Shown here: positions 6,231 through 51,353 of the stretch, in pieces
Layout: every line of letters starts with the position of its first letter
Numbering within the stretch: position 1 is the stretch's first letter
From: Rhyzopertha dominica
Taxonomy: Eukaryota > Arthropoda > Insecta > Coleoptera > Bostrichidae
Direction of reading: 5' to 3'
Length of the DNA: 64,000 nucleotides
Assembly (NCBI GenBank): GCA_025024175.1
Contig: QCXZ01000086.1
Location: 13,296,245-13,360,244, forward strand
Notes under the pieces: generated by a model
What the model saw: only the letters and a program-made list of their open reading frames with translations
Database searches by the model: none
Told to the model about the DNA's origin: nothing
Position numbers and translations under genes: made by a program

Positions 6231-6849
6231 TTTCATCCAGTGGACGTCGCTCTCCCAAAGAAAATGAAATTTCAGTTAATGTGTATCATGTAGATGTACT
6301 ACGTCGAACGTGCATAACATTGCATTTGCGTTTTTTACTGGAACTAGTTTTTATTATTCTTTCGCAAACTAATTTAGGAAACTAAGTTTACAGGGCGCAA
6401 GTCTGCGTCCAGTGATTTTATACAGTTGCTATATCTGGTTGCCATGGTTACCGCTCCATTCCATTCGGATTTTCGGATTAATATTTGCTTACATATGTGC
6501 ATTTTGGACTTTTCTATGCGTCTACAGTCAGTGTTGTTGCATTAATACATTTGTAGCAAGTGCAGTAGATAACAGCGTTGTCTTGCAGGTTTGGTACGAT
6601 GATTTGCAAGACAGCGCTGTAACCTACTGTTTCACATGCGCGAGAATAGAATTAATAAATCAAAAAAATTGAAAATAGTGAAATATTGAAAATGTATTGG
6701 CTCCAGTAGTAATTTGCTACAAAATAAGCCATATAACATTTACATATATCTGTTTTACGTCAACCATATGAAAACATGCCATTAAGAGTACTTTTTATAA
6801 ATGGTTGCTATTATTATTAACATTTAGTAGAATTAACGGTCGTTAAGAT
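6231..6849. other. Anonymous sequence
   Basis: Could include the decayed tail of the LINE upstream, but no domain can be read. A short inverted segment near 6585-6620 (CTTGCAGG...GCAAGACAGCG) is too short to classify. Confidence 0.4.
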
Positions 6850-7029
6850 TATTTTTTAATGTTTTAACGGGGATACCGACCTTTATTTAGCTTTAAGAAT
6901 ACTCTATATCATAAAGACTTTAGGTACAAAAATTTAGAAATTTTATAATCATTACTTATAAAAAACGCATACCCTAGAAAACTAGTAAGTAAATTACTTT
7001 ATAGTAACAATTATAGTAACAATTCGAGA

Positions 7030-7560
7030 GTGCAAAGTGAGGCAATTAACGTAATAAATAACGTACAAGGAAATAGTGAACCAAAAAAATTTGCAGTGTT
7101 ACCATATTACAATAATCTGACAGAAAAGTTAATAAACTTATTAAAAGATTATAACATAAATATTGCAAAAAAGAGTACGAAGTTAGTAGGTTCGCTGTAT
7201 ACAAAATTAAAAGATAAAACGCCATTACTATATAATACTGATGTGATTTACAAAATTAATTGTACATCTTGCCAAGGCTCTTACATAGGTCAAACTTGCC
7301 AGCAATTAAAAAATAGGCTGCGTTTACATAAAAGTGATATCCGTTTAAAACATGATAGTTGTGCTCTTTCTGGCCATGTTTTAGGTAATTCTCAACACGA
7401 AATTGATTTTGAAAATATAAATATATAAAAGAACATAATTTAGGCAAAAGATTAATATTGGAAATTATAAATATTAATACTAACAGATGTAATAACAGTA
7501 TTAGCAAAAAAAACGGATATACAAAATTTGAGTGTAATTTATACTTATTTACTAAATTAT
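7030..7560 (+). pseudogene. Penelope-like GIY-YIG endonuclease fragment
   Basis: The frame 7030-7428 reads through the C-terminal endonuclease of a Penelope-like polyprotein. An IY pair at residues 73-74 replaces GIY; the CTSC cysteine pair is at 78-81, YIG at 85-87 in the string GSYIGQTCQQLKNRL, arginine at 96, and histidines near 100, 116 and 123. This is the Cys-Cys-His-His arrangement typical of Penelope endonucleases, which nick target DNA for reverse transcription. After FENINI a +1 shift brings in LKEHNLGKRLILEIININT, the usual C-terminal tail, ending near 7560. Upstream the frame stays open to about 6930 without RT motifs. The first Met is not a biological start. Confidence 0.85.
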
Positions 7561-7775
7561 AAGAAGTGAATCAAATTTTATAATTTTGGTATAGTAATAT
7601 TTAAATTCTAAATTATAGAAATTGTATGAATAATGGTTCTTTGATAAAAAAAAGATGATATTTACTGAACCAGGCTGTTTCGTTTCTTTCATTGAAATTT
7701 TTTATTAGAGGAAAACAAACTTGTCATTTTGAAGTTGAAGGACCCATACTATATTGTAATTACATTATTTGTGGC

Positions 7776-7819
7776 AACCCTGAAGAAAGTGCGAAATAAA
7801 GTCCACCGAAAGCTTGGTT
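7776..7819 (+). ncRNA. Hammerhead ribozyme motif of Penelope-like copy A
   Basis: Stem I strands AACC (7776-7779) and GGTT (7816-7819) enclose core CTGAAGA (7780-7786), a short stem II (GTG 7789-7791 with CAC 7804-7806), GAAA (7808-7811) and a minimal AGCT stem III. It lies about 215 bases after the endonuclease ORF, in the same orientation. Stem II is only three clear pairs, so it may be weakened. It shares the CCCTGAAGA and GAAAGCTTGG blocks with the motif at 3421-3462, so the two belong to the same lineage. Confidence 0.65.
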
Positions 7820-7884
7820 TAGAATATAAAGAGTATTCTTAAAGCTAAATAAAGGTCGGTATCCCTGTTAAAACATTAAAAAAT

Positions 7885-8329
7885 ATTATTATTAACTATA
7901 TGCATCAGTATTTAGCGAAATTTGCATTGAATATTATTAGCTAAAAGAAAATTTAGCTGTAACATTATCAGTAACGCTTGACTAAGTGGAAAATTTCGGC
8001 AAACCAAAAATTTGATGGACAGTATCGCAGAATTTAATTTAAAAAAATTAATAGCTGTTGTATATTAAATTCTTAGGAAGTAATTAAAAATTAAATATTT
8101 TGAAAACATTATTGTTTTAAGGTGCGGAAAATAGCACTGAGCCCTTCCAATTCGGCGGTCCATAGGCTGCCACTGGATTCATGGTACACAACTTTGTTTA
8201 CTCATATCATTGCACAAGTCTTTATATTTCTTTCTCATTCCATTTAAGTTAACCAGTTATAATTTTTCTGTTGAAGATGCTGTATGTCAGTTATTGGAGT
8301 TTCATTGACAATAAGTTTTAAATGTCACC
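7885..8329. other. Anonymous sequence
   Basis: No feature is recognised between the Penelope-like copy and the transposase relic. Confidence 0.4.
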
Positions 8330-8760: not shown

Positions 8761-9056
8761 TTGCACTCTTTGGGCATATCTCACTCTTCCGTTATCAATG
8801 AATATATTTTAAAAGATTCCACCTCGCCCAATTGCCTAGTAAGTAACGAATATTTTGGCGCACGGGATATTCATGTAAATTTGACGTGCTTGTTCGGCAT
8901 ATCCATTAGCTTTTCCATAACCAAAATGAATATGAGGATATTCTTTGTTTGAGTATTCAAATGTCATCTTGCCCTATAAGATTCAAGTAATAATAACATA
9001 TATTTAATTCTTCAAAAGAAAATATTCTTAATGTGAACTTCCACTTTATTTTTCAA

Positions 9057-9099
9057 TTGTAAAGCGCTTTCGGCTACATGCTAGCCATCGTCAGTACAA
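9057..9099 (-). ncRNA. Hammerhead ribozyme, copy B left arm
   Basis: Mirror image of the motif at 10933-10975. On the minus strand: stem I TTGTA/TACAA, core CTGACGA, stem II GGCTA/TAGCC with loop GCATG, GAAA, and stem III AGC/GCT before the cleavage base. All conserved core positions are present. It lies about 105 bases downstream of the endonuclease stop codon. Confidence 0.8.
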
Positions 9100-9203
9100 A
9101 CGTTAAAAGGAAACTAACAGTTTGACAAAGTCAAAAAACAGAAACAAGCAAACTTGACTACAAACTGAAATGCAACCCACATGCCAGTAACTCAAACGAA
9201 ACA

Positions 9204-9953
9204 TTAATTTAGATCAAACAAAGAATTTAGAATAGGACAATTGAAATTACAAAAATCATTTAGAATAGTAAAATTTTGTTCGTTAATAATTTTATAAATC
9301 TCTAAAATTTCCAAATAATTTAATTTAGATGATTTAGTACACAAATGTAATGAATTTAGATTGTCTAGCGTGGCAGTGTGTTTATTTACTAATAAATGGT
9401 TAGCTAACGAAGAATTTGTTGTAACAATATCTGTATTTTTATACTTTTCAAATTGTTTCAAATGTTCTTTACCTCTAGTTAAAAAGGATCTTCCGGTTTG
9501 TCCAATATAAACTGAATTGCAATCATTACATGAAAAACTATAAACGCCTGAATTATTTAAAACTGAAATTTGGTCTTTATTACGGACAAAACGGGAAAAC
9601 ACACTGCCTACGGTAGAAAAAGCAATATTTATTCCATTAGAAGAAAATAATTTAGATAGGCTAACTGAGACTTGACCAGCAAACTTAAGAGGAAACCAAA
9701 CTTTAACTTTTTCATCCAAATAAGTGGTACAGAAAGAAAATTTAAATTTTGTCAAATACTTAAAATAAAGTTTTTCTATTAAATAATTAGGAAAATTGTT
9801 ATTGAAAGCAATTTGTAGTATTACACCCAATTCTTTTTCGAAAGCTTTTAATGACAGAGGTAATTTAAAAAGTCGATTAAAAATGAATGAAAAACAGCCA
9901 TTTTGTGTGCATAAGGGTGTAAAGAAAAATAAGAAATAACATTGTCTGTACAA
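9204..9953 (-). CDS. Penelope-like RT thumb plus GIY-YIG endonuclease (partial)
   Basis: A 249-codon frame, the longest Penelope endonuclease reading in the window. Residues 20-135 are the RT thumb/linker (NRLFKLPLSL, FPNYLIEKLYF, VWFPLKFAG). The endonuclease follows: GVY 136-138, SCNDC 141-145, YIG 149-151, GQTGRS 151-156, H164, H186 and H192, giving the Cys-Cys-His-His plus GIY-YIG set expected of this enzyme, which makes the target nick. The C terminus (NSLFDLN) is intact. The annotated Met is not the true start: the protein should continue upstream with the RT, and one base is missing near 9880 compared with the right arm, which shifts the frame from the family-typical FHSLFNRLF. Confidence 0.85.
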   Translation of the reverse strand: MYRQCYFLFFFTPLCTQNGCFSFIFNRLFKLPLSLKAFEKELGVILQIAFNNNFPNYLIEKLYFKYLTKFKFSFCTTYLDEKVKVWFPLKFAGQVSVSLSKLFSSNGINIAFSTVGSVFSRFVRNKDQISVLNNSGVYSFSCNDCNSVYIGQTGRSFLTRGKEHLKQFEKYKNTDIVTTNSSLANHLLVNKHTATLDNLNSLHLCTKSSKLNYLEILEIYKIINEQNFTILNDFCNFNCPILNSLFDLN

Positions 9954-10129
9954 GTAGATTTTCTAAAAATTTCAAAAGAAAGGTAAGAAGAAAATTCGTT
10001 ACGTGAAATTAATAAATCTAAAAAGGAAATTTGATTATTAATTTCTGTTTCATAGCTGAATTTTATAATTTTATAAAATTTTATAAAATTCAGCTATGAA
10101 ACAGAAATTAATAATCAAATTTCCTTTTT

Positions 10130-10828
10130 ATGGCTGTTTTTCATTCACTTTTTAATCGACTTTTTAAATTACCTCTGTCATTAAATGCTTTCGAAAAAGA
10201 ATTGGGTGTAATACTACAAATTGCTTTCAATAACAATTTTCCTAATTATTTAATAGAAAAACTTTATTTTAAGTATTTGACAAAATTTAAATTTTCTTTC
10301 TGTACCACTTATTTGGATGAAAAAGTTAAGGTTTGGTTTCCTCTTAAGTTTGCTGGTCATGTCTCAGTTAGCCTATCTAAATTATTTTCTTCTAATGGAA
10401 TAAATATTGCTTTTTCTACCGTAGGCAGTGTGTTTTCCCGTTTTGTCCGTAATAAAGACCAAATTTCAGTTTTAAATAATTCAGGCGTTTATAGTTTTTC
10501 ATGTAATTAATGCAATTCAGTTTATATTGGACAAACCGGAAGATCCTTTTTAACTAGAGGTAAAGAACATTTGAAACAATTTGAAAAGTATGAAAATACA
10601 GATATTGTTACAACAAATTCTTCGTTAGCTAACCATTTATTAGTAAATAAACACACTGCCACGCTAGACAATCTAAATTCATTACATTTGTGTACTAAAT
10701 CATCTAAATTAAATTATTTGGAAATTTTAGAGATTTATAAAATTATTAACGAACAAAATTTTACTATTCTAAATGATTTTTGTAATTTCAATTGTCCTAT
10801 TCTAAATTCTTTGTTTGATCTAAATTAA
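10130..10828 (+). pseudogene. Penelope-like thumb/endonuclease, one stop codon
   Basis: The frame is identical in layout to the left-arm protein. It starts MAVFHSLFNRLF and runs through VWFPLKFAG, GVYSFSCN, YIGQTGRS and the C-terminal NSLFDLN. One in-frame TAA at 10508-10510 replaces the Asp codon between the two endonuclease cysteines (CND-C in the left arm). The reading frame is otherwise uninterrupted across 233 codons. The few differences from the left arm (K/N, Q/H, K/E) show that the arms have diverged only slightly. Confidence 0.85.
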
Positions 10829-10932
10829 TGTTTCGTTTGAGTTACTGGCATGTGGGTTGCATTTCAGTTTGTAGTCAAGTTTGCTTGTTTCTGTTTTTTG
10901 ACTTTGTCAAACTGTTAGTTTCCTTTTAACGT

Positions 10933-10975
10933 TTGTACTGACGATGGCTAGCATGTAGCCGAAAGCGCTTTACAA
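10933..10975 (+). ncRNA. Hammerhead ribozyme, copy B right arm
   Basis: Stem I TTGTA (10933-10937) pairs with TACAA (10971-10975). The core is CTGACGA (10938-10944) and GAAA (10961-10964). Stem II is five perfect pairs, GGCTA/TAGCC, with loop GCATG. Stem III is AGC/GCT with no loop, as in the Penelope-type hammerheads thought to work best as dimers; the T before TACAA is the expected cleavage-site base. All invariant core bases are present. Confidence 0.82.
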
Positions 10976-11028
10976 TTGAAAAATAAAGTGGAAGTTCACA
11001 TTAAGAATATTTTCTTTTGAAGAATTAA

Positions 11029-13329
11029 TTAATAACTCCACTTAGAGAATATGGATCAGTTTTCAATTTTTAACATATATTTAAATCGTATAAATGGTCA
11101 GACTGACCATTATTGAAGCACTACAATTTGATTTTTAGGTGCCAAAGTATGAAAGGAATAAAATGTTTAACTTTGACTTATGATCAAACGGTGAGGATTT
11201 TTAAATTATAAATAAATAAAGAATACATTGTTAGATTCTGCAGTATGATTTTTAAGAAAATATTTCCTTTTTTTGAATGTCAAAACTAAAAAGTTATACT
11301 TAAAATAAAATTTGAGACTTGAGTAAAGCACCTTGTAGCAGCATAGCAGTGAAGTACGTTAATTTAAGCTCAAAATGGTGATCATACTGAACTTAATTTA
11401 TAATATTAATAATATTTATTAGCGATTAATGGCAATTACAACATTCATTCATCAAACATCAAAAAACATCAAATTTATAGTATACGCAAACAACCAAGAT
11501 ACAACAATAATATCTTCTTATCTAATCAATGACGTATAAAGGATGATTCACTAAGGGTACAGAGCTTTTAAATAAAAACTTATTGGAGAAAAATATCTTG
11601 AAGTTCCTAAGTTTCCCGTTAGGTGAATTTCACATTACGTTGCAAATAAACTGAAATAAATCCAAAATTTGCCGATAAAATGTAGGTGGTAGATAGAATT
11701 TTTAGAATCTCTGTTTTATTATGTAAAAGGTTTCTTAACATTTTTTCTCTAGTTGCCACGGTAGTGACAATAAAAATCTATATAAACTTCTAAATGCTAC
11801 ATTTTTTAAAAACCAAATTAACGAACTAGGACTCACTTAAGATGGAGTTTCAAGGGGATTAATATTAATGGTATATTGTTCCAAAATTGGTTTCTCTAAA
11901 AGCGCTATTTGGAAAACTGCCATATTTTCCTTGATTTCTCAAAAAAATTAAATAGAAAGATATATTTTTTCACCTCTTTTTGTAGGCTATTATTTAAGAA
12001 AGAGAGTGGCGAAAATCACAGGGGAGTGTCATTTTTTGTTTTAAAATTATTCACCAAAATAGTACACACAACACGTACAATAAAAATAACTAAATAAGAC
12101 AACATACTTTTTGCACTTTGTTGTGTAAGCTACTACTCAAGAAAAACTTTAGTAAAAGCCTCAGGTTGATAGCTTTTCTTGTTTAAAGTTATAGCCAAAA
12201 TAGTACACACTACACACACAAAATTATAAAAAGTAGCATTCTTTGTTTCCGGAAAAAGATTAATAAGAACGATATACAATTTTATATTTGTCACTAAGAC
12301 TATTATTTAGCAGAAAGTGTGGTGCGAACCCGAGGTTGATAGCTCTTCTTGGTTTAAAGTTACTATCAAAATAGTATATACTCCACGCATAACCGAGCAA
12401 CTAATTTCCTTATTTATTTAACAGTACATTAGTTTAATTTGCATTTCTAATAACTCACAATTGTATTTTTTAAATAGATTAATGTTTTTTTTTCAAAAAC
12501 AACAATCAAGATAAAATGAATAACGATGACGCATTGATATTTGTCTTGATATTTACGGAGCATGACCTACTTTGTTCCAAACTCACCTGGTAAAGTCATA
12601 AACATAAACATATCTAATTTTAACCACTAAAAATACATTTTAATTTTGATTTAAAAATAATATCTTGTGAATATTTTTATATTATTTATGCGCACATGTA
12701 TGTAAAATACTTGGGAAAAGACTTCAAAATTAAAAATGACAGTTCTCTCGGGTTTTTTGCACTTTCTTTCATATATAATAGCCTACAAAACAAAGTGAAA
12801 AGATTACTGTTTCATTTAAATTTGCGAGAAATCGAAAAAAGTATGACACTGTTTTAAATGACACCTTTTACTGTTGTTTAAAGTCATGTTTGGAACAGTT
12901 TACTGATAAAGATAAAAAAAAAGAATATTTGCTTATTGTAACTGCTAAATTCTAAAAATTTCATTACACAATAATTTTGGGTATACCATATTTATGTATC
13001 ATAGAGTTTTGAAATGTCCCTATGCATTTTTGTTTGATCGGGAAAAGTGTTTAGGTCTGGAATTGCCAATGTTCCTTTTGTGTTTACTATTTTTAAGGGA
13101 TCATCAGCAATTATGCACAAAATTTCAATTTCCATTGAGCGAAAAAACTTTTTGATGATTTCGAACTTCATTATATAACTATCGATCATTATTTTTTTAT
13201 ATAGAACCACCTTACAAAGTTTCCGAATGCATTTTGACGATAATTTTTATAGTTACGAGGGCATATTGGTATTTATTTGGCATGATAAACAGAATTTCAT
13301 TTGGTTGCTATGCTAACAACTATGATGTT
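11029..13329. other. AT-rich non-coding stretch with decayed repeats
   Basis: No protein domain is recognised. Two repeat patterns are visible and are listed separately: an inverted pair (11932-12000 with 12775-12830) and three diverged copies of a TTTAAAGTT...CAAAATAGTACACAC block. Otherwise the stretch is unassigned. A mariner-like end may begin near 13252 (TTACGAGGGCATATTGG). Confidence 0.45.
11932..12830. repeat. Foldback-like inverted repeat with internal periodic copies
   Basis: The block GATTTCTC...TTTTCAC...TTTGTAGGCTATTA at 11932-11995 recurs inverted at about 12775-12830. Inside, a block containing CAAAATAGTA followed by a C/A-rich run appears near 12054, 12197 and 12369, spaced about 143 and 172 bases. 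This fits an old foldback or satellite-containing element. Ends and target duplication could not be fixed. Confidence 0.5.
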
Positions 13330-24638: not shown

Positions 24639-24870
24639 ACGTCTCCGTCGCCTGCATCAGCCTAATTACTGTGCTGCTCCTTGTACAAGTGGGAGATCAA
24701 CGGAACCAGAAGGACCAGAGGCTCCAGAGGTCAACCCTAATCGTGCTGTTCCTTGCAAAAGTGGGAGATCCACAAACTGGGAAAGACTCAGGTAGGTCTC
24801 TAAGTTATCGAGCTTAATATCTACGCAACTCAAATCAATTCTCAATTCAAATCAATCAATCACTTCAAAA

Positions 24871-25118
24871 CATGGAAGGTCATGTTCATAACACAGATAT
24901 CTTAAACAATTTAAAAATAAATGATGACATCATGTCCGAAGCTTCAGAAGACAGCGTATCTCCACAAGAACTGCCATTACGGTACTGTTTAAATTCATAA
25001 AACCATTCAACGATGATAGAAGTGAAATTAATACTTTCATCCAAAATACAAACAGCGCCTTTTCTCTAGCGACACAGTCACAAACGAACAGTCTATTACT
25101 ATTTGTTTTTTCACAATT
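24871..25118 (+). pseudogene. Gypsy copy 1 gag, 5' part
   Basis: It begins MEGHVHNTDILNNLKIND, the same start as copy 2 at 30785, which supports this ATG. Frame disruptions follow within 120 bases (after PQELP). Similarity to copy 2 continues to TTTCACAATT near 25118 and then stops abruptly at the 2-kb insertion. Confidence 0.7.
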
Positions 25119-27139
25119 GGGTATTTGCCATGTATTTATATTTTATTAAATTACATACTAATAGGTAGCGTCTAATTCACAAAACAGCTGTGACAGCTTA
25201 TAAAATCGAAAAAAAGATGGATCGTAAGGTGTATTTGTAATCCTAAAAATGTGAATATTTAAAGAACCGCCAAAACGTGAACATATTGGCCGTGACGTCA
25301 AATGTCTTGTAAATGGCCCCTTGTTTACATCTGGGGTCAGCGCATCACGCGTCAGCCTCAGCACGTCAATTTATCATTTGTTGTTTGCGTTCATTTTGTG
25401 ACAAGTGAATTAAAATACGCCAAGTAAAAGTGAAGTACTTATGAGTTCTGAAGGTATGTTCATTGTTATGGAATTTGTGAACAGCGACCAGTGGTTCAAC
25501 GCAGCGGACATTAACGTAGCATTGAAAATTTGATCACAATGAGTTGTTGGAAACATGCTATTTGTAAATATAAAAATGTAAGAATCAGAAATGTACCCTA
25601 AACTTGACATTTATTTTAGAGGTCAGAATAAATATAAATTGCCATTTATTTTCGGGATTCTTGAGACTCGTTTCCGGTCTGGCTACCAGTCGAATATATT
25701 GGGAACAGCGTCTTTCTTTATTATAACATTTCCCTCTATTAGCTTAAAACGCATATAATTACTTCTACATCCAACGGATGGGAAGTATTGTATCGCGAAA
25801 AAAATTTCCAAAAATGTTTTTATTTGCTCATTCGCTTTAAAATGGTCAAAAATGCAAAAAAACAAAATTTGAGAAAAAAAATTCTTGTCTGTGTGTGTTG
25901 TTCTGTGGTCTTGTTTGTGGACACGATAACTTTCGAAAGACTTAATATCTGAACTTGAAATCTGGCAAACGTATAAATCTCAGCTACCCAAATCGACCTA
26001 TTGTTTGTGGGGTAAGTAGGGTGTCGGGAAGGGGGCGAAATTGGGGGGTAACTACCCTTTTTGCAAATTTTTATTTTTTTATATTTTTTTCGTTTTAGTA
26101 TATGATTAATAGTATAACTGCGAGTATTATTAGTCCTTATAAATTTTCGGAACAGCAAACGGTTTAGAAAATATTACCAAAAAAGCGTCACTTAAAGAAA
26201 CGGTTTTTCCTAAATATCTCGGAATACATTTAATATATTCAAAAAATGAAAATGCCATCAGATAGGAAATAAAATTTCTCACCAAAAATGTCTTAGAAAA
26301 TTTATCCAAAATTTAGACATTTTCGAAATATTTCCAAAAAACCTATTTTGGACCCTGCTCGTACAATTTTTTTAAAATTTTAATATTATATAGAAAATCA
26401 AAGTTCTGATCAGAAAGCGGTCTTGCAATTTTTTTGTTAAGTTAATAATTTTCGAGTTATTTGGAAAAAAAGCCGATTTTTAAAATGTATGTATTTTTGC
26501 TAATATCACGAGGACTGTTTGTCTTAGAAAAAATGCTCAAAACCTGATTACTAGTCGTATAGTATAAGAAATAAAAACGTAAATGTCATTTTGACAATTG
26601 GATGTGGAAGTATTGATTCAACTTGCATTTTCCATATCCTCTTCAAGCTATAAAAAATTGAAATTGAATGGTAAACACCTATAACCTCAAAAGAATAATA
26701 AAACTTACATTAAGATGATCTTCACAACAGAAAAACAAACTGCGATTTCGGCATGTCACGCCTAGCGGCCTTGAACCACTTTTTCATACGTTGATAATCT
26801 CGAGAAACGGTTACAAAAATTTTGTTAAGGGTACTGACGTACTTTTACAGCCGGGTACAAAACAGCACTTGTTTTGTTTCTCATGTATAATAGATGCTTG
26901 TAAAACTACACAAATCACTTTTTGGTTTCCAAACACCTCACAAAAGCTTTTCCAATATAAGAATGATACTGGGTAATGTTTATGTGACACTTGACGTCAC
27001 GAGTTGAATAACCTTGGATAGAAGCGTTTTGGCAGCGACTCCTAGGATCCGAATTTCAGACCTGAAATTCTCTACTTACAAATGTTTTTTTTGTTTTTTT
27101 AATACGGCCTAAAATATAAATGCACTTCAAGATTCATTA
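25119..27139. mobile_element. 2-kb insertion in Gypsy copy 1 gag
   Basis: Gag similarity between the two Gypsy copies is lost at about 25118 and regained at about 27140, where about 60 bases of target seem to be missing. The insert contains repeat A (25761-26611) and about 600 and 530 bases of unassigned sequence on its sides. No transposase and no clear termini are seen, so it may be composite. Confidence 0.6.
25761..26611 (+). repeat. Repeat A, copy 1 (TIR-type element)
   Basis: It starts ACTTCTACATCCAACGG and ends CAATTGGATGTGGAAGT, imperfect inverted termini. The body is about 80-85 percent identical to the inverted copy at 31777-32636, with matching landmarks (CGATACAATACTTCC, CACAAACAATAGGTCG, GACGCTTTTTTG). 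No ORF is conserved between the copies. Similarity runs about 16 bases past the right terminus, so the true end may be slightly further out. Confidence 0.75.
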
Positions 27140-27850
27140 TAAAACTAAAACTATATTACAGTCAAACAATAAAACATCTGGTACAAGCACATGAACAATT
27201 AGAAACGATAAGGCAACAGAATCATGAAACGATTACGGAATTCTTTAAAAGAGTTGAAAAAGCTAAAAATGATTGTATACAAGCCGAAATTGCTTCTAAC
27301 GACGAAGAACTTCCGGGTATTAAACGTTCAATTCAGCAAACTGCTCTAAGAATTATTCATTGTAAGCCAGAAATTTCACAAATGTTACATGCTCGCGATC
27401 TTAATTCATTAAACGATGCCTATTCAATCGCTTTACGAGAAGAAAAAATAATAAACTATACCACAAACAAAAATCCTCAAATGTACTGTAAAATTTGTAA
27501 AACTAATAATCATAATACGCAAAATTGCAGAAACAAAAGAATATTTAGATCCAGCAATAATAATTATCGACAGGATGTGGGTTATCACAGTCAAAAAAGA
27601 CCGCATTATTCGCAATACAATTCTTAAAACACTTAAGTTCTGCAATTACTGCAAAACACCTGGTCACTTAATCAGTGAGTGTAGAAAACGTCAACACAGA
27701 AACGAAACACAAGCAACCAATTTATATAATCCTCGCGTCAACAGTTTAAACTCGCAAACGTTACCCTTTACAAATGCTCCACATGTATACACCAACAGAA
27801 AACAGAGGCATTCCCCAGCACATTGCAAGCAACAACAATCAGTTCAATGA
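27140..27850 (+). pseudogene. Gypsy copy 1 gag, 3' part with two zinc knuckles
   Basis: The capsid C-terminal region reads HLVQAHEQLETIRQQNHE and FFKRVEKAKND. It is followed by two CCHC zinc knuckles that bind RNA in the nucleocapsid: CKICKTNNHNTQNC near 27485-27530 and CNYCKTPGHLISEC near 27640-27690. The knuckles are in different frames, so a shift lies between 27530 and 27640. Confidence 0.8.
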
Positions 27851-28500
27851 CCCGATAAGCACAAACTTGAAAACACTAACGTTCAATTTAAAAAACTCTC
27901 CAAATCAAAATGTAACTTTTCTAATCGACACGGGCCCAGCAACTTCTCTAATCATGCTTCATTAATTCCACAACAAACGCCTCTAAATAAACAAAGTATC
28001 ATGTATGTTCATGGCATAAATACAAATTCTCCAATCAATAGCTTAGTTACGGCAAATCTTGAACTTTCGATACAAGACATTAAAATCACTCATAAAATTC
28101 ATGTTGTAAACGCCTTCAAAATTAATTCCCATCTTGACGGTTTTTTAGTCTATGATTTCTTAATGTCAAACAATGCATTAATAGATTATCTTAACGACTT
28201 AATAATTATAAACAATCGAAAAATCAAATTCAATAATTCAGTTACTTACAACAATATTAAGTTACCGCAACGATTAGAAAACCACATTCAAATTAATATT
28301 GCAAATAATCTAAAATATGAATTAATTACAAAAAGGCAACTAATTACAGATGTTTATGTACCAGATATTTTAGTCTTAACCATAAATCATACAGCGATTA
28401 TTGCAGACTTAAATTTAAACCCATTTGACGTCGAAATAGAAACACCAACTTTAGAAATTGAGGAAGTCATTCAGCCAGAACAAATAAATTATTATAATGA
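27851..28500 (+). pseudogene. Gypsy copy 1 protease region
   Basis: FLIDTGPATSLI near 27917-27955 is the aspartic protease active site (family form DTGA), with Pro at the position after Gly that is normally Ala/Ser. After a shift, the frame 28001-28612 gives DGFLVYDFLMSNNALIDY, the protease flap/C-terminal ILGxDFL block with Val for Gly. The same frame runs on into the linker before RT. The enzyme would mature Gag-Pol; this copy is unlikely to work. Confidence 0.8.
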
Positions 28501-29516
28501 TCAAGACTCAAAATTTTACAATCAACTCAAAACGAATATATTTATTGCACGAAAATATTCGAACAAGTCACTTAAACGACGAAGAACGTTCAACTTTATT
28601 GAAAATTTGTGAAAAATATAATATATTTCATTTACCAGGAGACATTTTAACGAGTACTGATACAATTGAACATACGATACCAACTTCAACTGAAACTCCA
28701 GTAACAGCAAACTTATATCGCTATCCTAAAATGAATGGGCAAGAAGTAAAAAACATAATTTGTCCGTCACATTTACCATGGTCCAGTCCAGTATGGATCG
28801 TTCCAAAAAAAACTAGATTCATCGTCATGGACTACCGAAAGTTAAATTATATCACTATTGGTGACTCATATCCATTTCCTAACATAGATTCAATCTTAGA
28901 TCACCTAGGAAATGCAATTTATTTCTCCACCCTAGATTTAGCTTCGGGGTACCATCAAATCAAAGTATCAGAAAAAGACAAACCAAAAACAGCTTTTTCC
29001 ATCCCTTCAGGTTTATTTGAACTTAACCATATGCCCTTTGGATTAATATCCAGTCCAGCTACTTTCGCAAGATTAATGAATATCGTACTTTCAGAAATAA
29101 CAGGCACAAAATGGTTTTGTGATCTAGACGACATTGTCGTATACGGTTTTTCATCATCAGAAACTAGAAGAAGTTTTCAAAAGGTTACCAGAACATAACT
29201 TAAAATTACAGCCAGGTAAATGCGAATTCTTAGACAAAGAAATTGCATATCTTGGACACATAATTTCTGATGAAGGAATAAATCTGACCCAAACAAAATC
29301 AAAACTATTCTAAACATTAAGTCTCCACAAACGCCAAAAGATATCAAATCTTTTCTCGGATTAGTAGGGTACTACAGAAAATCAATCGCTAAACCACTAA
29401 CTTCGCTTCTTAAAAAAGATACTAAATTCGAATTCTCAGAAAAATGTCACAAAGCTTTTCAACCACTAAAAGATATTTTAACTAGCGACACAATTCTCCG
29501 ATATCCAGACTGATTA
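28501..29516 (+). pseudogene. Gypsy copy 1 reverse transcriptase (truncated)
   Basis: The 233-codon frame to 29198 contains the RT fingers and palm: HLPWSSPVWIVPKK (residues about 92-105), DYRKLN, FSTLDLASGYHQI (first catalytic Asp at 147), KTAFSIPSGLFE, MPFGL and CDLDDIVVYG (Asp 211 and 212). After a shift, 29160-29513 gives LKLQPGKCEFL, LGHIIS, FLGLVGYYRK and the connection domain, ending at LRYPD. RNase H is absent because the junction with copy 2 lies here. Tyr of the usual YLDD signature is Cys-Asp. Confidence 0.88.
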
Positions 29517-29519
29517 GGT

Positions 29520-30390
29520 GTGTTTCGGTCCATTAGAAGATACGTATGAAGATCCTTCTGCCAGTCGCTGAATGGAGTGCTTGCACTGATGCGTAATTTC
29601 TTTAGCAATGAATTATTTTGTCTTTCCACTAAACCATTGGTTTGCGGCCAATAATGTGGTGTATAGTTTTATACCATTATTTTAAACAGAAGGGCTTAAC
29701 CTCTTGGCTGACGAACTGTCTACCGTTGTCAGCAGTTATGGTTCGAGGCAGACCCAGGAGAGAGAATAATTTTCGTAGTTGCTCAATAGTTTCTTTTGCA
29801 GTGATTCGTTCCATGGCCACTACTTTTTTAAATCTGCTATAGTAATCGATGACTACTAGAAGATAGTTGTTGTTTGGCATTGGTCCACAGAAGTTAATTG
29901 CAATGTCGGTCCTAGGTGCAGTCGGGAAAACTCTCATCTTCAAAGGCTGTGGAGCGTTGCTTATTGTAACCAAATTGCATTCGTGACAGATCTTGACGAG
30001 ATTTACTACATCCGAGTCGATCTTGGGCCACCACACTTTGACCGCAGTGAGCGTTTCATGTTTTCTATTCCGGGATGTCCTTTATGGCCAAGGGCTACAA
30101 TATTTGGGCGTAATAGTTTTAGGACAACTATTTTTGTTCCTCTCAGTAAGAGATTCTCGTGGAAACAGAATTCTGTTTTGAAGGACTTGTAGAGTTGAAG
30201 TGATTTTTCATGTTCCCATAATTCGTTGCTGTTGAGACATTCCCGAAGTAGCAAGATCTCGGGATCATTTTTTTGACATTTCATTTAATTCATTAATAGT
30301 CACGGCAGGAGCGTCTGTTGACGCTGTGGTTTCGATAATTAAATGTGCAATATCGTCTTCAAATAGCTCTGTTGTTTGTCGTTTGTAAGT
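29520..30390 (-). pseudogene. Gypsy copy 2 integrase
   Basis: The zinc-binding HHCC domain is seen as LGHKGHPGIENMKRSLR followed, one shift later, by WWPKID...CHEC. The catalytic core starts at IAINFCGPMP, where family members usually have Asp at the N (residue 48 of frame 29677-30036), so the first catalytic Asp appears replaced. The second Asp is present in TADNGRQF (residue 103), and the Glu is present in GLVERQN, reached in another frame near 29626. The enzyme would insert cDNA; with the D-to-N change and three shifts it is dead. Confidence 0.85.
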
Positions 30391-30395
30391 AGGTA

Positions 30396-30785
30396 ATCAT
30401 TTTTAGCTTTTTCAACTCTTTTGAAGAATTCCGTAATTGTTTCATGATTCTGTTGCCTTATCGTTTCTAATTGTTCATGTGCTTGCACCAGATGCTTTGT
30501 TTGACTGTAATATAGTTTTAGTTTTTGTTTTAGTTCATGCCAAGATGTTATATCTGTCAGTTCTAGTTCATTTACTACGTTTGTAGATAATTGTGAAACA
30601 AAAAAATAATAATAAACTTGTCGTTTGTGACTGCGCCGCTAGAGAAAAAGCGCTGTTTGTATTTTGGATGAAAGTATTGATTTCAGTTCTTGTGGAGATA
30701 CGCTATCTTCTGAAGTTTCGGACATGATGTCATTATTTATTTTTAAATTTTTTAAGATATCTGTGTTATGAACATGACCTTCCAT
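30396..30785 (-). pseudogene. Gypsy copy 2 gag fragment
   Basis: Starts MEGHVHNTDILKNLKINN and, after a shift, gives AAQSQTTSLLL...LTDITSWHELKQKLKLYYSQ and FFKRVEKAKND, a retrotransposon capsid pattern. It keeps the ~90 bases that the insertion removed from copy 1, so it shows the uninterrupted gag layout. Confidence 0.75.
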
Positions 30786-30971
30786 GTTTTGATGTGATTG
30801 ATTGATTGTGATTTGAATTGATTTGAGTTTGAGTTGCGTAGATATTAAGATCGATAATTTAGAGACTTACCTGAGTCCTTCCCAGTTTGTGGATCTCCCA
30901 CTTTTTGTAAGGAGCAGCACAGTAGTTTGGGCTGATGCAGGATGGTTGATGCAGGCGACACCCGGAACTTA

Positions 30972-31490
30972 TCCCATGAACTGACACCAATTTTTCACTG
31001 TTGTATTCCTCACTTGGAAAACACAGTTTTTAATAAACGTTTATTTCTGACAACAGGGCAGCTTTTATAAGTGAAAAGCTCCGTAAACACTGCAGAGTGA
31101 AGTGCACAGTTTCTAACACTGATTTACACTTGTATTTGACATGAACTGAATTACAGTATTTTAATTTAAAGAACTTGTTATTATGACAGAAATCCGATGA
31201 ACTGACTGACAGCGTGACGTGCTAGACGGATGGTAATCTGCAACTTACCGTGCTCAACTCGCAATCAACTTATATAGATATTGATAATAGCTGAGCTTGC
31301 AATGTTTATAAAACAATGGCCCTATTGTAAGGGTAGTTTGCTAACAACATAATGGCTGAATTCCTTAGATAATAAGGGCTCAAATGGTACTATTTAGATA
31401 AATAAATTGAAGACGTCATATCTTCGTCATGGTAACAAACTGCTCTGTTTCAATCGTCTCAAAATAAAGCTGTTTTTAAATTTTTAGATA
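30972..31490 (-). repeat. Probable LTR and primer-binding site of Gypsy copy 2
   Basis: On the minus strand, TGGTGTCAGTTCATGGGAT (complement of 30972-30990) directly follows an AT-rich segment and has the TGG start of a tRNA primer-binding site. The ~490 bases beyond it are unlike gag/pol and unique in the window, as expected for a single LTR. The outer LTR boundary could not be fixed, and the second LTR is absent. Confidence 0.5.
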
Positions 31491-31776
31491 CCAGTTTCAG
31501 ACTTTCTTTTTACTTTTTTTTTATTGACTCTCGGTATTACATACCACATTATATAAATATTAATACACCGTAGTGCATAGGTTAATGAAAAACCAATAAA
31601 CAAGCACATAGGTACTTACCGCCATTTGGATTGATTAGGTTTTACTCCTGTCTTAGAATAATGTATGCTTGATAAACGTACTCTAGTTCTATTACCTCTA
31701 CGGTAATCACTCTTTCCCTGATTATTGTCTATGACAAGGTGCAACAGTATAAAAAACCGCTGCAAATTGAATCAAT

Positions 31777-32636
31777 ACTTCCACATCCAATTGTCAAAAT
31801 GACATTTACGTTTTCATTTCTTATACTATACGATTTTGTAATCAGGTTTTGAGCATTTTTTTCTCTTTACACAACACACAACAGTCCTCGTGATATTAGC
31901 AAAAATATATACATTTTTAAAATCGTTTTTTTTCCAAATAGCTCGAAAATTATTAACTTAACAAAAAATTACAAGAGCGCTTTCTGATCAGAAATTTGAG
32001 TTTCTATATAACACCAAAATTTAAAAAAAAATCATATGAGCAGGGTCCAAAATAGGTTTTTGGAAATATTTCGAAAATGTCAAAATTTTGGATAAATTTT
32101 TTAAGACACTTTTTGTGAGAAATTTTATTTCCTATCTGATGGCATTTTCATATTTTGAATATATTAAATATATTCGGAGATATTTAGGAAAAACCGTTTT
32201 CTTTAAGTGACGCTTTTTTGCTAATATCTCTGAACAGTTTGCTGTACCGAAAATTTATGAGAGCTAATAATACTCGCAGTTATACTACTAATCACATACT
32301 AAAACGAAAAAAATATAAGAAAATAAAAATTTGCAAAAAGGGTGTAGTTACCCCCCCCCCAATTTCGCCCTCTTTCGGATAGCCTACTTACCCCACAAAC
32401 AATAGGTCGCTTTGGGTAGTTGAGATTTATACGTTTGCCAAATTTCAAGTTCATATATAAAGTCTTTCGAAAGTTATCGTGTCCACAAACAATGCCACAG
32501 ACACACAGACAAGAAATTTTTTTTGCTCAAATTTTGTTAGTTTGCTTTTTCGGTCATTTTAAAGCGAATGAGCAAATAAAAATTTTTGAAATTTTTTTTC
32601 GCGATACAATACTTCCCAGCCGTTGGATGTGGAAGT
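31777..32636 (-). repeat. Repeat A, copy 2 (inverted)
   Basis: Inverted counterpart of 25761-26611, bounded by ACTTCCACATCCAATTG and CCGTTGGATGTGGAAGT. It sits just outside the LTR side of Gypsy copy 2. Flanking sequences differ from those of copy 1, so the two are separate insertions or were separated by rearrangement. It has a C run at 32351-32360. Confidence 0.75.
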
Positions 32637-35179
32637 AATAGAACTTATAAATTCGCGCGGGAATACACTTTCCCGGTCATGAGTCATCACCAATATATCA
32701 CTGGTCTACTGTGGTTGGACGCGATTGTGGTATCCAGCGCTAGGTGGCAGCAACAGCCAGAGCGCATTTTTAGGTTTGCAAACGTTTGGGAATAAAGTAA
32801 TTACACGGTTATTTTTTACGAAATTCAATGAACCTTTTTTTTATTGGAAAGATAAAAGACAGACGCGTGCTATTTATTTGGCAGAATTTGAAAAGTAGCC
32901 TTAGAATTACCGTAAATTACAATCAAATATCATAAAACTTTGGTTGGTTAGACCTATTTTTTGCTGTTTTAGGAACTTTTTCCAAAAAACAGCAAATAAA
33001 TTTCCTGTCGGGACTTCTTTAGAGCACACTTGTGAAGTTTCACAATGATTGCTCTTTTTGTACGTTTATTATAATTTTTTTTCAAACATATGTATCGAGC
33101 AGATTTTTCATGTTAGGTATTCCCTCCTAAAGTGTTTGTACAGCTTTTTCATATTAGCACTTTTGGGTTCTTCACTTTGGTTTTTCTTGCATTGCTTTCG
33201 CTACCGCTGTTGCCATTTCCAATAGCATCAGTATCATTTTCATGTGAAGTATCCGTCTGACTTGTTTCAGGCTCTTTTATAACTAGTTACAAACCTTAAA
33301 TTGAATAAGTAGGTAAAAGAATATTTGTACAAACATACTGAACTGACAAAACTTCATATCCTGAGTCCTGACTAGAATTAAAATATTATTGGGTTTTCTG
33401 ATGAAAACGATTTATTGTATACAATACACATTCTACACAATACAAGAATGCAACCAGTAGGCAGTAAGCTTTAATTCAAACTTCGGAGGTTCGGACCAGT
33501 ATCGGGCATTTCCGATCCCAAACCACTCCCACTTCCAAAGTGTAATACGAATTACCAACACAACTGATTGAAATTAAAGAGTGCTTCATATTCATATTGT
33601 TTATTCGGCGATTATTATTAGTTGGAGCTTTGCAGCACTAGAGGGTAGGAGCGGCAGGAGTGAAAAAGGCAATGACATTATAGTCACTGCGAAGGAGTAA
33701 ATTACACTAATGCTATCTATTATAACAAAAATTATAATAGATATTTATTAGAATTGTAATGACGTAATAGAAATCTTATAAATGTAATAGATCTAATACA
33801 ATTGTAATAGCAGGAACAACCCTGACTCGTAGCCTTCAGTTTTAACCGAGGTATACAGATATTAGTTTCGAGCGCCATCTCTGTATCAAAATGGAACGTG
33901 ATTTATAATAGTATTATTTTTTAAAGTTTAAATTTTAACTTTTTGAAAGTGTTATTGTTAAAAGTTTTATTTGAAATAGTTTTTTAAAGTGATTTTTTAA
34001 CTTTTTTTAGAAAAAAGTTTTGAAAATAATATTTTATAGGAAATAATTTCAATAAATAGCTTAAATATTTAATATGTCCACAAAAATTGTATTATTTATC
34101 TAAGATTATTTTTGTTTCAAAAGGCGCTTCATGACTGCGTACCATAATTTGTTTCGAGATCGCAGGCAACGTGGCAACACCGTGCATCACAACTTCTCAA
34201 TCTCAACTGTCTTTGTCTTCTTGAACATTTAAAATGGAGATGTCGATGTCATGCTTGTGTGATGATATGGAGACTAACTCGTTCCTTGGTGGTTGCATAG
34301 GTGGATATTTTGTGCACTGTTTTACAATATTAAGTATTAATTTTTCATGTTATATACATAACACGGAGCAAAGATCATAATGCCGGTAAGAAATAATAAT
34401 AATAAGTAAATGCTAGAATGGTTGCCAGGCGCCCGCATTCTTGACAGGTTTTTTTTGTTCTTTTATATCACGTCCTTCGTTTTTATTGTTGCTTTACTAG
34501 GCATTAGAATCCAAATTCTTTTCAAACAATGTTATTCTTCAATAATGAGAAATTTCGATTTAAATTTGAAATCGATCATAACCAACTCGCCTGCAATGGT
34601 GACGTCTTAAAATCCAAACGTTGTCATGGTTACAAGATCCGTTACAAATTGAAAGTCGTACAGGTACCTAATAGAAAAGGTTTTATTTTGTTTTTTTTTA
34701 GATTAAANTGAAAAGATGCTACAGCTGGATATGAACCTTAATCAAAAGGACATTCCCCCGCTTCAACACAATCCTTAAAGGGGCTAGGCCGCTTACTAAT
34801 GGAATTACGGATGATATCCATTGGTATTTTTGCCGTTGCTAGAGCTAGACTGCTTGAGTGATCCCATTGTCATCTGTTGAATAATTCCTACCCAGTCCAA
34901 GAGCTGTAACTGCCTTGCCGTAAGTGTTAACCAATATTTCTATTCCTTCTTCGCATAAAAGTCATACCTTGATGGGATATTTCCCACTAACTTAGGGTTG
35001 CCATATGTTCAAGTACACTGGGACATGTTACCAGTTCCATAAATTTTATCCCTGGGTCCCAGTGTGAGCTGCGAATGTCCCAGACTATTGTGACCATATG
35101 GAAGCATTACAATATAAGGAACTTGATGTGTCAATATTTATATGCTCTTCCTGCTCACAGATATTGTCTCCGTTTATTT
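32637..35179. other. Anonymous 2.5-kb stretch
   Basis: No protein domain is recognised. A small palindromic piece at 34994-35103 starts GGGTTGCCATATG and ends CATATGG, with CTGGGACAT blocks in inverted order; it resembles a truncated MITE. A (TAATAG)-rich patch lies at 33720-33810. Confidence 0.4.
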
Positions 35180-50284: not shown

Positions 50285-50433
50285 GGCTCTCACACATCAT
50301 GTTCCATAATCATTCATTCCAAGTATATCTGTACAGTGAAACTTGTGATTTGAATATATTTTCATCTTATATTCTTAAGTGCCATTTGTTGTTTAGTTCA
50401 AGATTATAGTTTTTGGTTTATACAAGCCAAAAC

Positions 50434-50450
50434 AAAAAGAGCCATGTCAG
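50434..50450 (+). repeat. Target-site duplication, left copy
   Basis: AAAAAGAGCCATGTCAG, matching 50645-50661 at 16 of 17 bases (G/A at position 13). Confidence 0.85.
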
Positions 50451-50644
50451 TAGGCAAAGCCAAACAATCTCAGGGAGCGACATCCACCGGCAAGCCGATG
50501 AGCGCCGCCCCAACGAAACGTCTGGGATCGCTAGTGCGTCTACATTGGGACTATAGCCGAGCTGAAGAGATCTAATAGGTCGAAACAGCTGTCCTCGGAT
50601 TGTTTCTAGTGTAGACAACACAGCGCACACCTTTGTTATTTATT
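50451..50644 (+). mobile_element. 194-bp ribozyme-bearing retroposon (retrozyme/SINE-like)
   Basis: A GC-rich 194-bp segment lies precisely between two 17-bp direct repeats, the hallmark of target-primed insertion of an RNA copy. It has no ORF, no inverted ends and ends in an AT-rich TTTGTTATTTATT. Its 3' half is a full type I hammerhead (50538-50616). The 5' half has a second GAAACGTC block (50515-50522) with partly complementary flanks GCGA..TCCA and TGGGATCGC, which could be a decayed second ribozyme about 71 bases upstream. Non-coding elements that spread with hammerheads are known as retrozymes in plants and animals; assignment here is inference. Confidence 0.75.
50538..50616 (+). ncRNA. 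Type I hammerhead ribozyme, well preserved
   Basis: Outer stem I GTCTACA (50538-50544) pairs with TGTAGAC (50610-50616). After an internal loop, inner stem I CCGAG (50557-50561) pairs with CTCGG (50594-50598). The core is CTGAAGA (50562-50568) and GAAA (50582-50585). Stem II is GATC/GGTC with loop TAATA. Stem III is AC/GT closing on AGCT, followed by the cleavage triplet GTC (50591-50593). Every invariant core base is present and the internal loops of stem I resemble those that make loop-loop contacts in fast natural hammerheads. Cleavage is expected after C50593. Confidence 0.85.
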
Positions 50645-50661
50645 AAAAAGAGCCATATCAG
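50645..50661 (+). repeat. Target-site duplication, right copy
   Basis: AAAAAGAGCCATATCAG, matching 50434-50450 at 16 of 17 bases. Confidence 0.85.
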
Positions 50662-51353
50662 TCCAAGTTATCAAAAGCCTTTCAACTTGGTAATGCTGGA
50701 TAATGGAAACTGATACATTACATATGTAATATTTAATCATATTTGGCTTTCCTTAATGCCAAACTGCACTTTTTACTTCTGAATTCCTTTAACACTATTT
50801 GAAAGTCAAATAAAGGAGAAACTTTACTATTTAAAAAAATACTTATGCTAAATATTATATCGTTGTAAAGCTGACAAAGTGGCCGACTTTATGAGGCATT
50901 AAAAATATATAGATATGTGTTTTATCTAAAAAAAGGCAACTGGCATAATAAACTGGAATAGTTTGTTTTGTGAAACACAAAATTATTTGCTATGTTTATG
51001 TGTATAAATCTTCTGTAAAATCTGGAATATGAACTTTAAGGGTTGGGCTCACACAGGGACATATTTTCTTCCAATTAACTTTCTGCCTAGCTCTGATACT
51101 TTCCCAAATCTTCATATCACCTTTGAGAAAAGCTTGCTTTATGTAAAATACAAAATTATTTATTTCCTTTAAGTCAATTATAGGATGTGTTTAATAAAAT
51201 AGTGAAAGTATTAAATAAGCTGACCAGATAATATGTTTGCATCTTAGAAAAAATAAGGATATGCATCATGTTTTTATTTAGATTTATGGATACACCTGTA
51301 ACAGTAACTGTTTTGCTAATATACCATTTACAACGTATTTTCTTCTGTTTCAG
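50662..51353. other. Anonymous sequence, possibly intronic
   Basis: No coding domain is recognised. It ends in the polypyrimidine tract and TTTCAG of the candidate exon that follows. Confidence 0.4.

Follow-up and report, generated by a model that had tools for sequence, protein, structure and literature searches.

Non-LTR retrozymes of metazoans, known from coral, mussel and axolotl, are multicopy elements built on a non-coding, self-paired unit of about 150-450 nt that carries a type I hammerhead ribozyme (HHR), and salamander HHRs with a short palindromic stem III act as dimers (PMC7229834). In its available sections, this original retrozyme paper names Penelope-like elements (PLEs) as a strong candidate for the mover, and the corresponding part of a review states that retrozyme repeats show no conserved motif pointing to an autonomous helper (PMC7761336). 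PLE copies are inverted, most often head-to-head, with an optional 31-bp tail on one inverted repeat, and in rotifers their target duplications measure 8-10 bp or are absent; for the inverted structures, self-priming on antisense RNA was favoured in the portion of the paper that treats them (PMC3846280). In vitro, PLE insertion proceeds with cutting and extension of both target strands, internal starts and a preference for unprocessed RNA, and the HHR is dispensable for it (PMC11167929, as far as its available text describes). We found no description of a head-to-head retrozyme insertion in the open-licence PMC literature, which, as a search of texts without supplements, is weak evidence of absence.

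The locus considered here lies in a 64,000-nt stretch of the Rhyzopertha dominica genome (the window). Direct repeats at 50434-50451 and 50645-50662, identical at 17 of 18 positions, bracket an insert that has no ORF and is non-coding, with a GC content of 50.5% versus 27.7% in 1 kb of flank. A first-pass annotation of the letters alone had described a GC-rich insert of 194 bp between 17-bp repeats; the composition and the repeat match were borne out, but not the length of the duplication. This is most likely 12 bp (AAAAAGAGCCAT), because duplications in the family are mostly 12-13 bp and the family unit matches from 50444 onwards. The GTCAGT that follows the left AAAAAGAGCCAT matches that unit, and in the additional GTCAGT/ATCAGT match the left copy would be element-derived and the right copy a product of chance or annealing. 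No second copy of the insert was found in the 64-kb window. Elsewhere in the window, a direct repeat with 17/18 identity and a spacing of 170 bases (12165-12352) has flanks that are alike over a longer stretch, and is perhaps a short tandem repeat.

When aligned to the 346-bp tandem unit of the family (U, read from locus L051), the insert resolves into an antisense and a sense piece placed head-to-head with five shared bases. Its parts are as follows.

50434-50445, no strand: left target-site duplication AAAAAGAGCCAT (most likely extent); the repeat match runs on to 50451, 17/18.
50444-50542, minus strand: antisense piece of the retrozyme unit, U299 down to U201, 99/99 identical to U of L051; its outer end would be reverse-transcription start site 2.
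50455-50459, minus strand: CTTTG motif (U284-288), mapped from U positions, adjoining start site 2.
50538-50542, no strand: five bases common to both pieces at the head-to-head joint, from the alignment to U.
50538-50644, plus strand: sense piece, U1-107 (HHR and tail), 101/107 identical to U of L051; its outer end is the putative start site 1.
50538-50616, plus strand: type I hammerhead hairpin, with a stem I of 13 outer bp and inner CCGAG/CTCGG, stem II GATC/GGTC and a palindromic stem III.
50562-50593, plus strand: catalytic core, CUGAAGA to GUC; predicted cleavage after C50593 (between U56 and U57).
50617-50644, plus strand: tail with CTTTG (50631-50635, U94-98) and the start site 1 region.
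50645-50656, no strand: right target-site duplication AAAAAGAGCCAT (most likely extent).

The window copy therefore has one HHR and less than one unit, and because of this single HHR and the lack of a whole unit it is probably a dead end, unable to make a new circle.

The ribozyme itself was recognized by Rfam at 50556-50599 (RF00163), with a score of 33.6 bits just below the gathering score of 34 and a significant E-value of 1.5e-4 for the window or 7e-7 for 301 bases; the four HHRs of L051, at 28.0 to 32.9 bits, also lie below that cut-off. The hammerhead core CUGANGA ... GAAA ... NUH with three stems is present, and a strict core-plus-stems descriptor gave the insert HHR as its single match on both strands of the window (400 dinucleotide shuffles gave 6 matches in all). 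The CTGAAGA, GAAA and GTC segments and the pairing of CCGAG/CTCGG, GATC/GGTC and the outer helix had all been pointed out in the first-pass annotation, and hold. Its wording of a near-ideal hammerhead went too far, since helix III has 1-2 bp within a palindrome (ACAGCUGU) and stem II contains one U-G pair where the majority of copies have U-A. From the palindromic helix III of 1-2 bp, the window HHR is expected to act as a dimer, and self-cleavage after C50593 would follow from the predicted core. With regard to the loop I-loop II tertiary contacts of a canonical type I HHR, the loop UAAUA looks, by eye, like the Rfam consensus loop. Although the hairpin at 50538-50616 is stabler than 499 of 500 shuffles, its predicted minimum-energy fold (-29.5) is not the HHR fold (-21.7 to -22.7), which lies 7-8 kcal/mol higher with tertiary terms left out; in the minimum-energy fold the core is blocked, because GCTG pairs with CAGC. 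We rejected a second HHR in the 5' half (CCGATGA ... CGAAACGTC from 50495), for which 107 of 1000 shuffles scored as high and Rfam gave no match, and likewise a viroid-like RNA with ribozymes on both strands, as Rfam found no minus-strand ribozyme in 50400-50700.

The idea that this copy is specially preserved, under selection or recently active, finds no support in comparison with its relatives. Among 53 complete family hairpins from 43 loci (22 partial matches set aside), 44 keep the strict core. Fifty of these hairpins could be aligned, omitting L124 (a duplicate) and L050 and L108 (indels), which left 45 distinct rows with 96.5% of cells paired in the 50-hairpin alignment. Two-sided change was seen at 1 of 24 pairs (UA 21, CG 15, UG 9; 15/45 distinct rows). 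Shuffles matched the observed number of two-sided pairs in 293/500 cases and the number of pair types in 500/500; no shuffle (0/500) reached the observed percentage paired, covariation score or number of two-sided cells. The stem covariation that had been proposed as a check thus lends the ribozyme fold modest support, because this is a young family of similar copies in which the double change could have come from two lineages.

The genome (479 Mb, 138 contigs) contains many further copies, so that the single-copy case is excluded. A search with the insert gave 80 matches, with the best 40 of 498 candidates scored, and a search with U gave 96, with the best 40 of 269 scored. In the first search, about 16 loci had both insert halves together; positions 1-92 and 88-194 of the insert were frequently located on opposite strands, with a distance of 93 or 54 bases between them. 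This arrangement is that of U, which consists of H (HHR and tail, 107), G (93), a' (the reverse complement of insert positions 1-92) and S (54). The 194-bp insert is consequently unlikely to be the mobile unit it had been taken for: within the 346-nt unit, the 5' half of the insert runs antisense to the half with the HHR, and the inner joints vary between copies. S can pair with the H tail, lengthening stem I, and U folded as a circle is highly self-paired, with a predicted -146.9 kcal/mol and a z of -9.8 versus 100 shuffles (one unknown base set to G). We did not retain G + a' as a diverged repeat of S + H: the score of their alignment was equalled by 3 of 500 mononucleotide shuffles, but this alignment is full of gaps. 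Of the first-pass reading of a retrozyme- or SINE-like passenger, the retrozyme part therefore stands, on a non-coding multicopy unit with a type I HHR, flanking duplications and runs longer than one unit, whereas the SINE part conflicts with the joints and strands. The insert had no match in a phage collection, and viral contigs had no match to three patterns. In other genome contigs 27 loci had a 17-mer, about chance level, and none was HHR-like by eye.

We mapped U on 66 fetched loci, 40 from the insert query and 26 more from the U query. As these are the best-scoring of longer candidate lists, the fractions below are not genome-wide, and the first 40 are biased because the insert query is itself head-to-head; L123 and L124, having an identical duplication, are probably one duplicated locus, which leaves 65 independent loci. 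A head-to-head structure was found in 49/66 loci (33/40 from the insert query, 16/26 from the U query). In 44 of them the antisense outer end is no more than 16 from U297 and the sense outer end no more than 14 from U106; three lack the antisense end near U297 (L065, L072, L107) and two the sense end near U106 (L067, L122). None of the 49 has an identical site at both ends. Immediately 5' of each of the two sites are a predicted hairpin and a CTTTG (U94, U284). The other 17 loci are not head-to-head and comprise seven single runs with site 1 only, seven with site 2 only and three with neither. Because seven single runs end at site 2, one of them (L128) with a 15-bp duplication, site 2 alone can seed an insertion. 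In L107, the antisense outer end of the head-to-head copy (U53) adjoins the HHR cut site, as if it had been primed from a cleaved RNA end; this is one case.

Target duplications, scored as matches minus twice the mismatches with a cut-off of at least 9, accompany 38/66 loci, among them 35 of the 44 in which both outer ends are the fixed ones, versus 3 of 396 swapped-flank pairs. They range from 9 to 18 bp, with 12 bp in 15 loci and 13 bp in 9, and none scoring 9 was found in 28/66 loci. In L123 and L069 the retrozyme sits in a PLE-like ORF; taking out the element together with one repeat leaves a sequence to which the window PLE aligns over the joint, with no gap at that point. The outer ends were fixed and the inner joints varied, by eye, in 17 aligned copies with adjacent halves. 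For the 33 head-to-head loci of the insert query, 22 inner joints, by raw count, share 1-6 bases, one shares none and ten contain 1 to 39 unexplained bases. Tandem copies occur as short arrays: same-strand runs exceed 346 bases in 11/66 loci (L042, L050, L051, L052, L053, L061, L062 and L106-L109), the longest being 780. Fixed outer ends together with free inner ends point to two reverse transcriptions, each with a set start and any stop, and runs that pass the HHR cut and even a whole unit imply a circular or multimeric RNA.

A comparable geometry was found in the window itself. GIY-YIG domains lie at 6949-7428 (plus strand) and 9204-9962 (minus strand), scoring 20.9 and 19.0 against a Pfam cut-off of 22.6, and we presume that the copies carrying them are PLE-like. 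Protein search found five PLE-like relatives at 30-46% identity; with the second GIY-YIG copy as query, one relative has GIY-YIG plus PF26215. Two insertions have flanking repeats.

8994-11087, no strand: head-to-head PLE-like pair with outward tails; arms 9001-9883 and 10149-11031; flanking repeat 8994-9010 and 11071-11087, 16/17.
6809-7896, no strand: second PLE-like GIY-YIG insertion; 66-nt inverted ends 6844-6909 and 7826-7891; flanking repeat 6809-6821 and 7884-7896, 13/13.

Their duplication scores are 14 and 13, respectively; among 200 random flank pairs a score of 9 was reached by 11 and a score of 11 by 2, and in a further control 5 of 2000 random pairs were at 16 or more of 17. The arms of the 9-11 kb pair are 99% complementary with 265 nt between them, and the left copy ends 51-61 nt past the HHR cut while the right extends 39 bases beyond the shared part. 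By eye, the PLE-like tails contain minimal HHR-like motifs (CTGACGA ... GAAAGCGCTT, about 10939-10970), for which Rfam at E up to 1 and the descriptors gave no report. Locus L123 (100-1720) adds a retrozyme inside a PLE-like element with outward tails on both sides, the flanking repeat of which is weak (11/12); the local PLE geometry comprises the two insertions with duplications and L123, four other PLE-like window copies not being counted. The middle of the PLE pair holds a near-perfect palindromic hairpin (10028-10121), for which Rfam lists the plant miRNA MIR6288 below cut-off and which is probably an inverted joint and not a miRNA. A large nested inverted arrangement also surrounds a Gypsy-like element at 24757-32639 (RVT_1 at 28488-29198 and, in the opposite orientation, integrase at 29677-30081), with about twenty inverted stretches of 60-160 nt, 83-97% complementary, between 24.8-27.3 kb and 30.4-32.6 kb. 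We rejected the insert as a fragment of a window PLE, since its similarity to five PLE-like tails of the window is no better than that of shuffles; it also has no RT or GIY-YIG ORF. The CTTTG of the retrozyme sites has one loose PLE parallel, CTTTTG. Nevertheless, the Penelope link that the first-pass annotation had suggested gains support from the head-to-head layout, outward tails and target duplications; by this geometry, not by shared sequence, a PLE enzyme would be the best candidate mover, because the insertions resemble both published PLEs and the two PLE-like insertions of the window.

The explanation that we favour, with a probability of about 70%, is that an animal-type non-LTR retrozyme gave rise to the insert in one of its integration events, in which both strands of the cut target primed reverse transcription of its circular or multimeric RNA, starting at two fixed sites within that RNA. 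Where a copy has two same-strand HHRs, its transcripts would be cleaved into RNAs of 346 nt, which a host ligase would circularise. A Penelope-like enzyme with an endonuclease would then cut both target strands about 12 bp apart, and each target 3' end would prime reverse transcription, with either circular RNA or multimeric RNA left uncut as the template; synthesis from one strand would begin at site 1 (near U106) and from the other at site 2 (near U297). The two cDNAs would extend back around the RNA, end at varying positions and be joined, often at a few matching bases; at the window copy, reverse transcription would have stopped early on both sides. We infer the PLE driver, the RNA circles and the cleavage from sequence features. 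The narrower proposal, that Penelope-like enzymes integrate retrozyme circles by two-ended target priming with one cDNA per fixed, non-equivalent site, we regard as evenly balanced. Both estimates take account of the small number of PLE insertions behind the PLE link. The two start sites could possibly correspond to one per subunit of an enzyme dimer.

Other routes to such structures were considered. A head-to-head master element that is long and linear, for example L051 (1188 bp), could be transcribed end to end, its palindromic RNA making the reverse transcriptase jump, which would give fixed ends with variable internal deletions and need neither circles nor two-strand priming. This accounts for the fixed outer ends, the one inversion per copy and the absence of an identical site at both ends, and several long head-to-head copies do exist (L051, L052, L106). 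However, the seven single runs with a site-2 end and no site-1 end, including L128 with its duplication, would require loss of the 3' end, runs over one unit vary in length between loci, and the window PLE-like insertions share the tails-out layout although their RNA is of one sense. We therefore consider a master element unlikely. A LINE-type element that moves the retrozyme by ordinary target priming and twin priming (5' inversion) is quite improbable. Inverted 5' parts, microhomology joints and duplications of 9-15 bp would be in keeping with LINE biology, but in twin priming the inverted part begins at variable internal places, whereas here it begins near U297 in 44/49 head-to-head loci; moreover, the joints showed neither poly(A) nor a 3' repeat tail of constant form.

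That the 194-bp joined form constitutes a young SINE-like family in its own right appears very improbable. The window copy, L036 and L037 do have a common TCTA joint and 96-98% identity, so that this form may have been re-mobilised, yet TCTA is a shared-base joint that could recur, and the joints are different, by eye, in the remaining 14 of 17 aligned copies. In addition, the two halves come from opposite strands of a longer unit, so that the colinear unit with constant interior expected of a SINE is missing, and Rfam found no tRNA-, 7SL- or 5S-derived head in 50400-50700 at E up to 10. A tRNA-derived SINE in particular was rejected, as no tRNA was found in the insert.

Returning to two-ended priming on retrozyme RNA, the head-to-head insertion geometry would be a signature of the helper of the kind that the repeats themselves had not provided, and it can be scored in any retrozyme-bearing genome. 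The copies would provide dozens of naturally occurring examples, for both strands, of the start and stop points of a Penelope-like reaction, and would bear on how PLEs make inverted structures. If the proposal is true, each insertion records two divergent reads round a circle, the RNA of the 346-nt unit is shaped for bearing a pair of Penelope start sites, and a product replicates again only when it extends beyond a full unit on one strand.

As far as PMC7229834 describes them, metazoan retrozymes resemble this family in their type I HHR, multicopy state, runs over one unit and target duplications longer than 4 bp, in the presence of PLEs in the genome, and in a unit size range that includes 346 nt. 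The GC content of U (48.6%) is above the <45% of Figure 1C and below the <50% of the text of that paper. They differ in that tandem repeats, and no head-to-head structure, are described there, whereas in the present family the majority of examined copies combine a head-to-head layout with two fixed outer ends, and no same-strand run exceeds 780 bases (about 2.25 units). The newt and salamander HHRs share the very short stem III with palindromic loop, and hence likely dimer action (PMC7229834; PMC6155905, in the parts available), but have another sequence and unit. The schistosome SMalpha element is likewise a small non-coding retroelement with a type I HHR (PMC8490949, available portion); in contrast, our insert is not colinear with its family unit and lacks a tRNA. 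Endonuclease-bearing PLEs, as covered in the accessible text of PMC3846280 and PMC11167929, show the same head-to-head arrangement, unlike outer ends, internal starts, short duplications and minimal HHR near the tail. The retrozyme departs from them in having no ORF and no similarity to the window PLE tails, in start sites about 190 nt apart on the unit versus 30-40 in PLEs, and in duplications (mostly 12-13 bp) that are longer than the 8-10 bp of rotifer PLEs.
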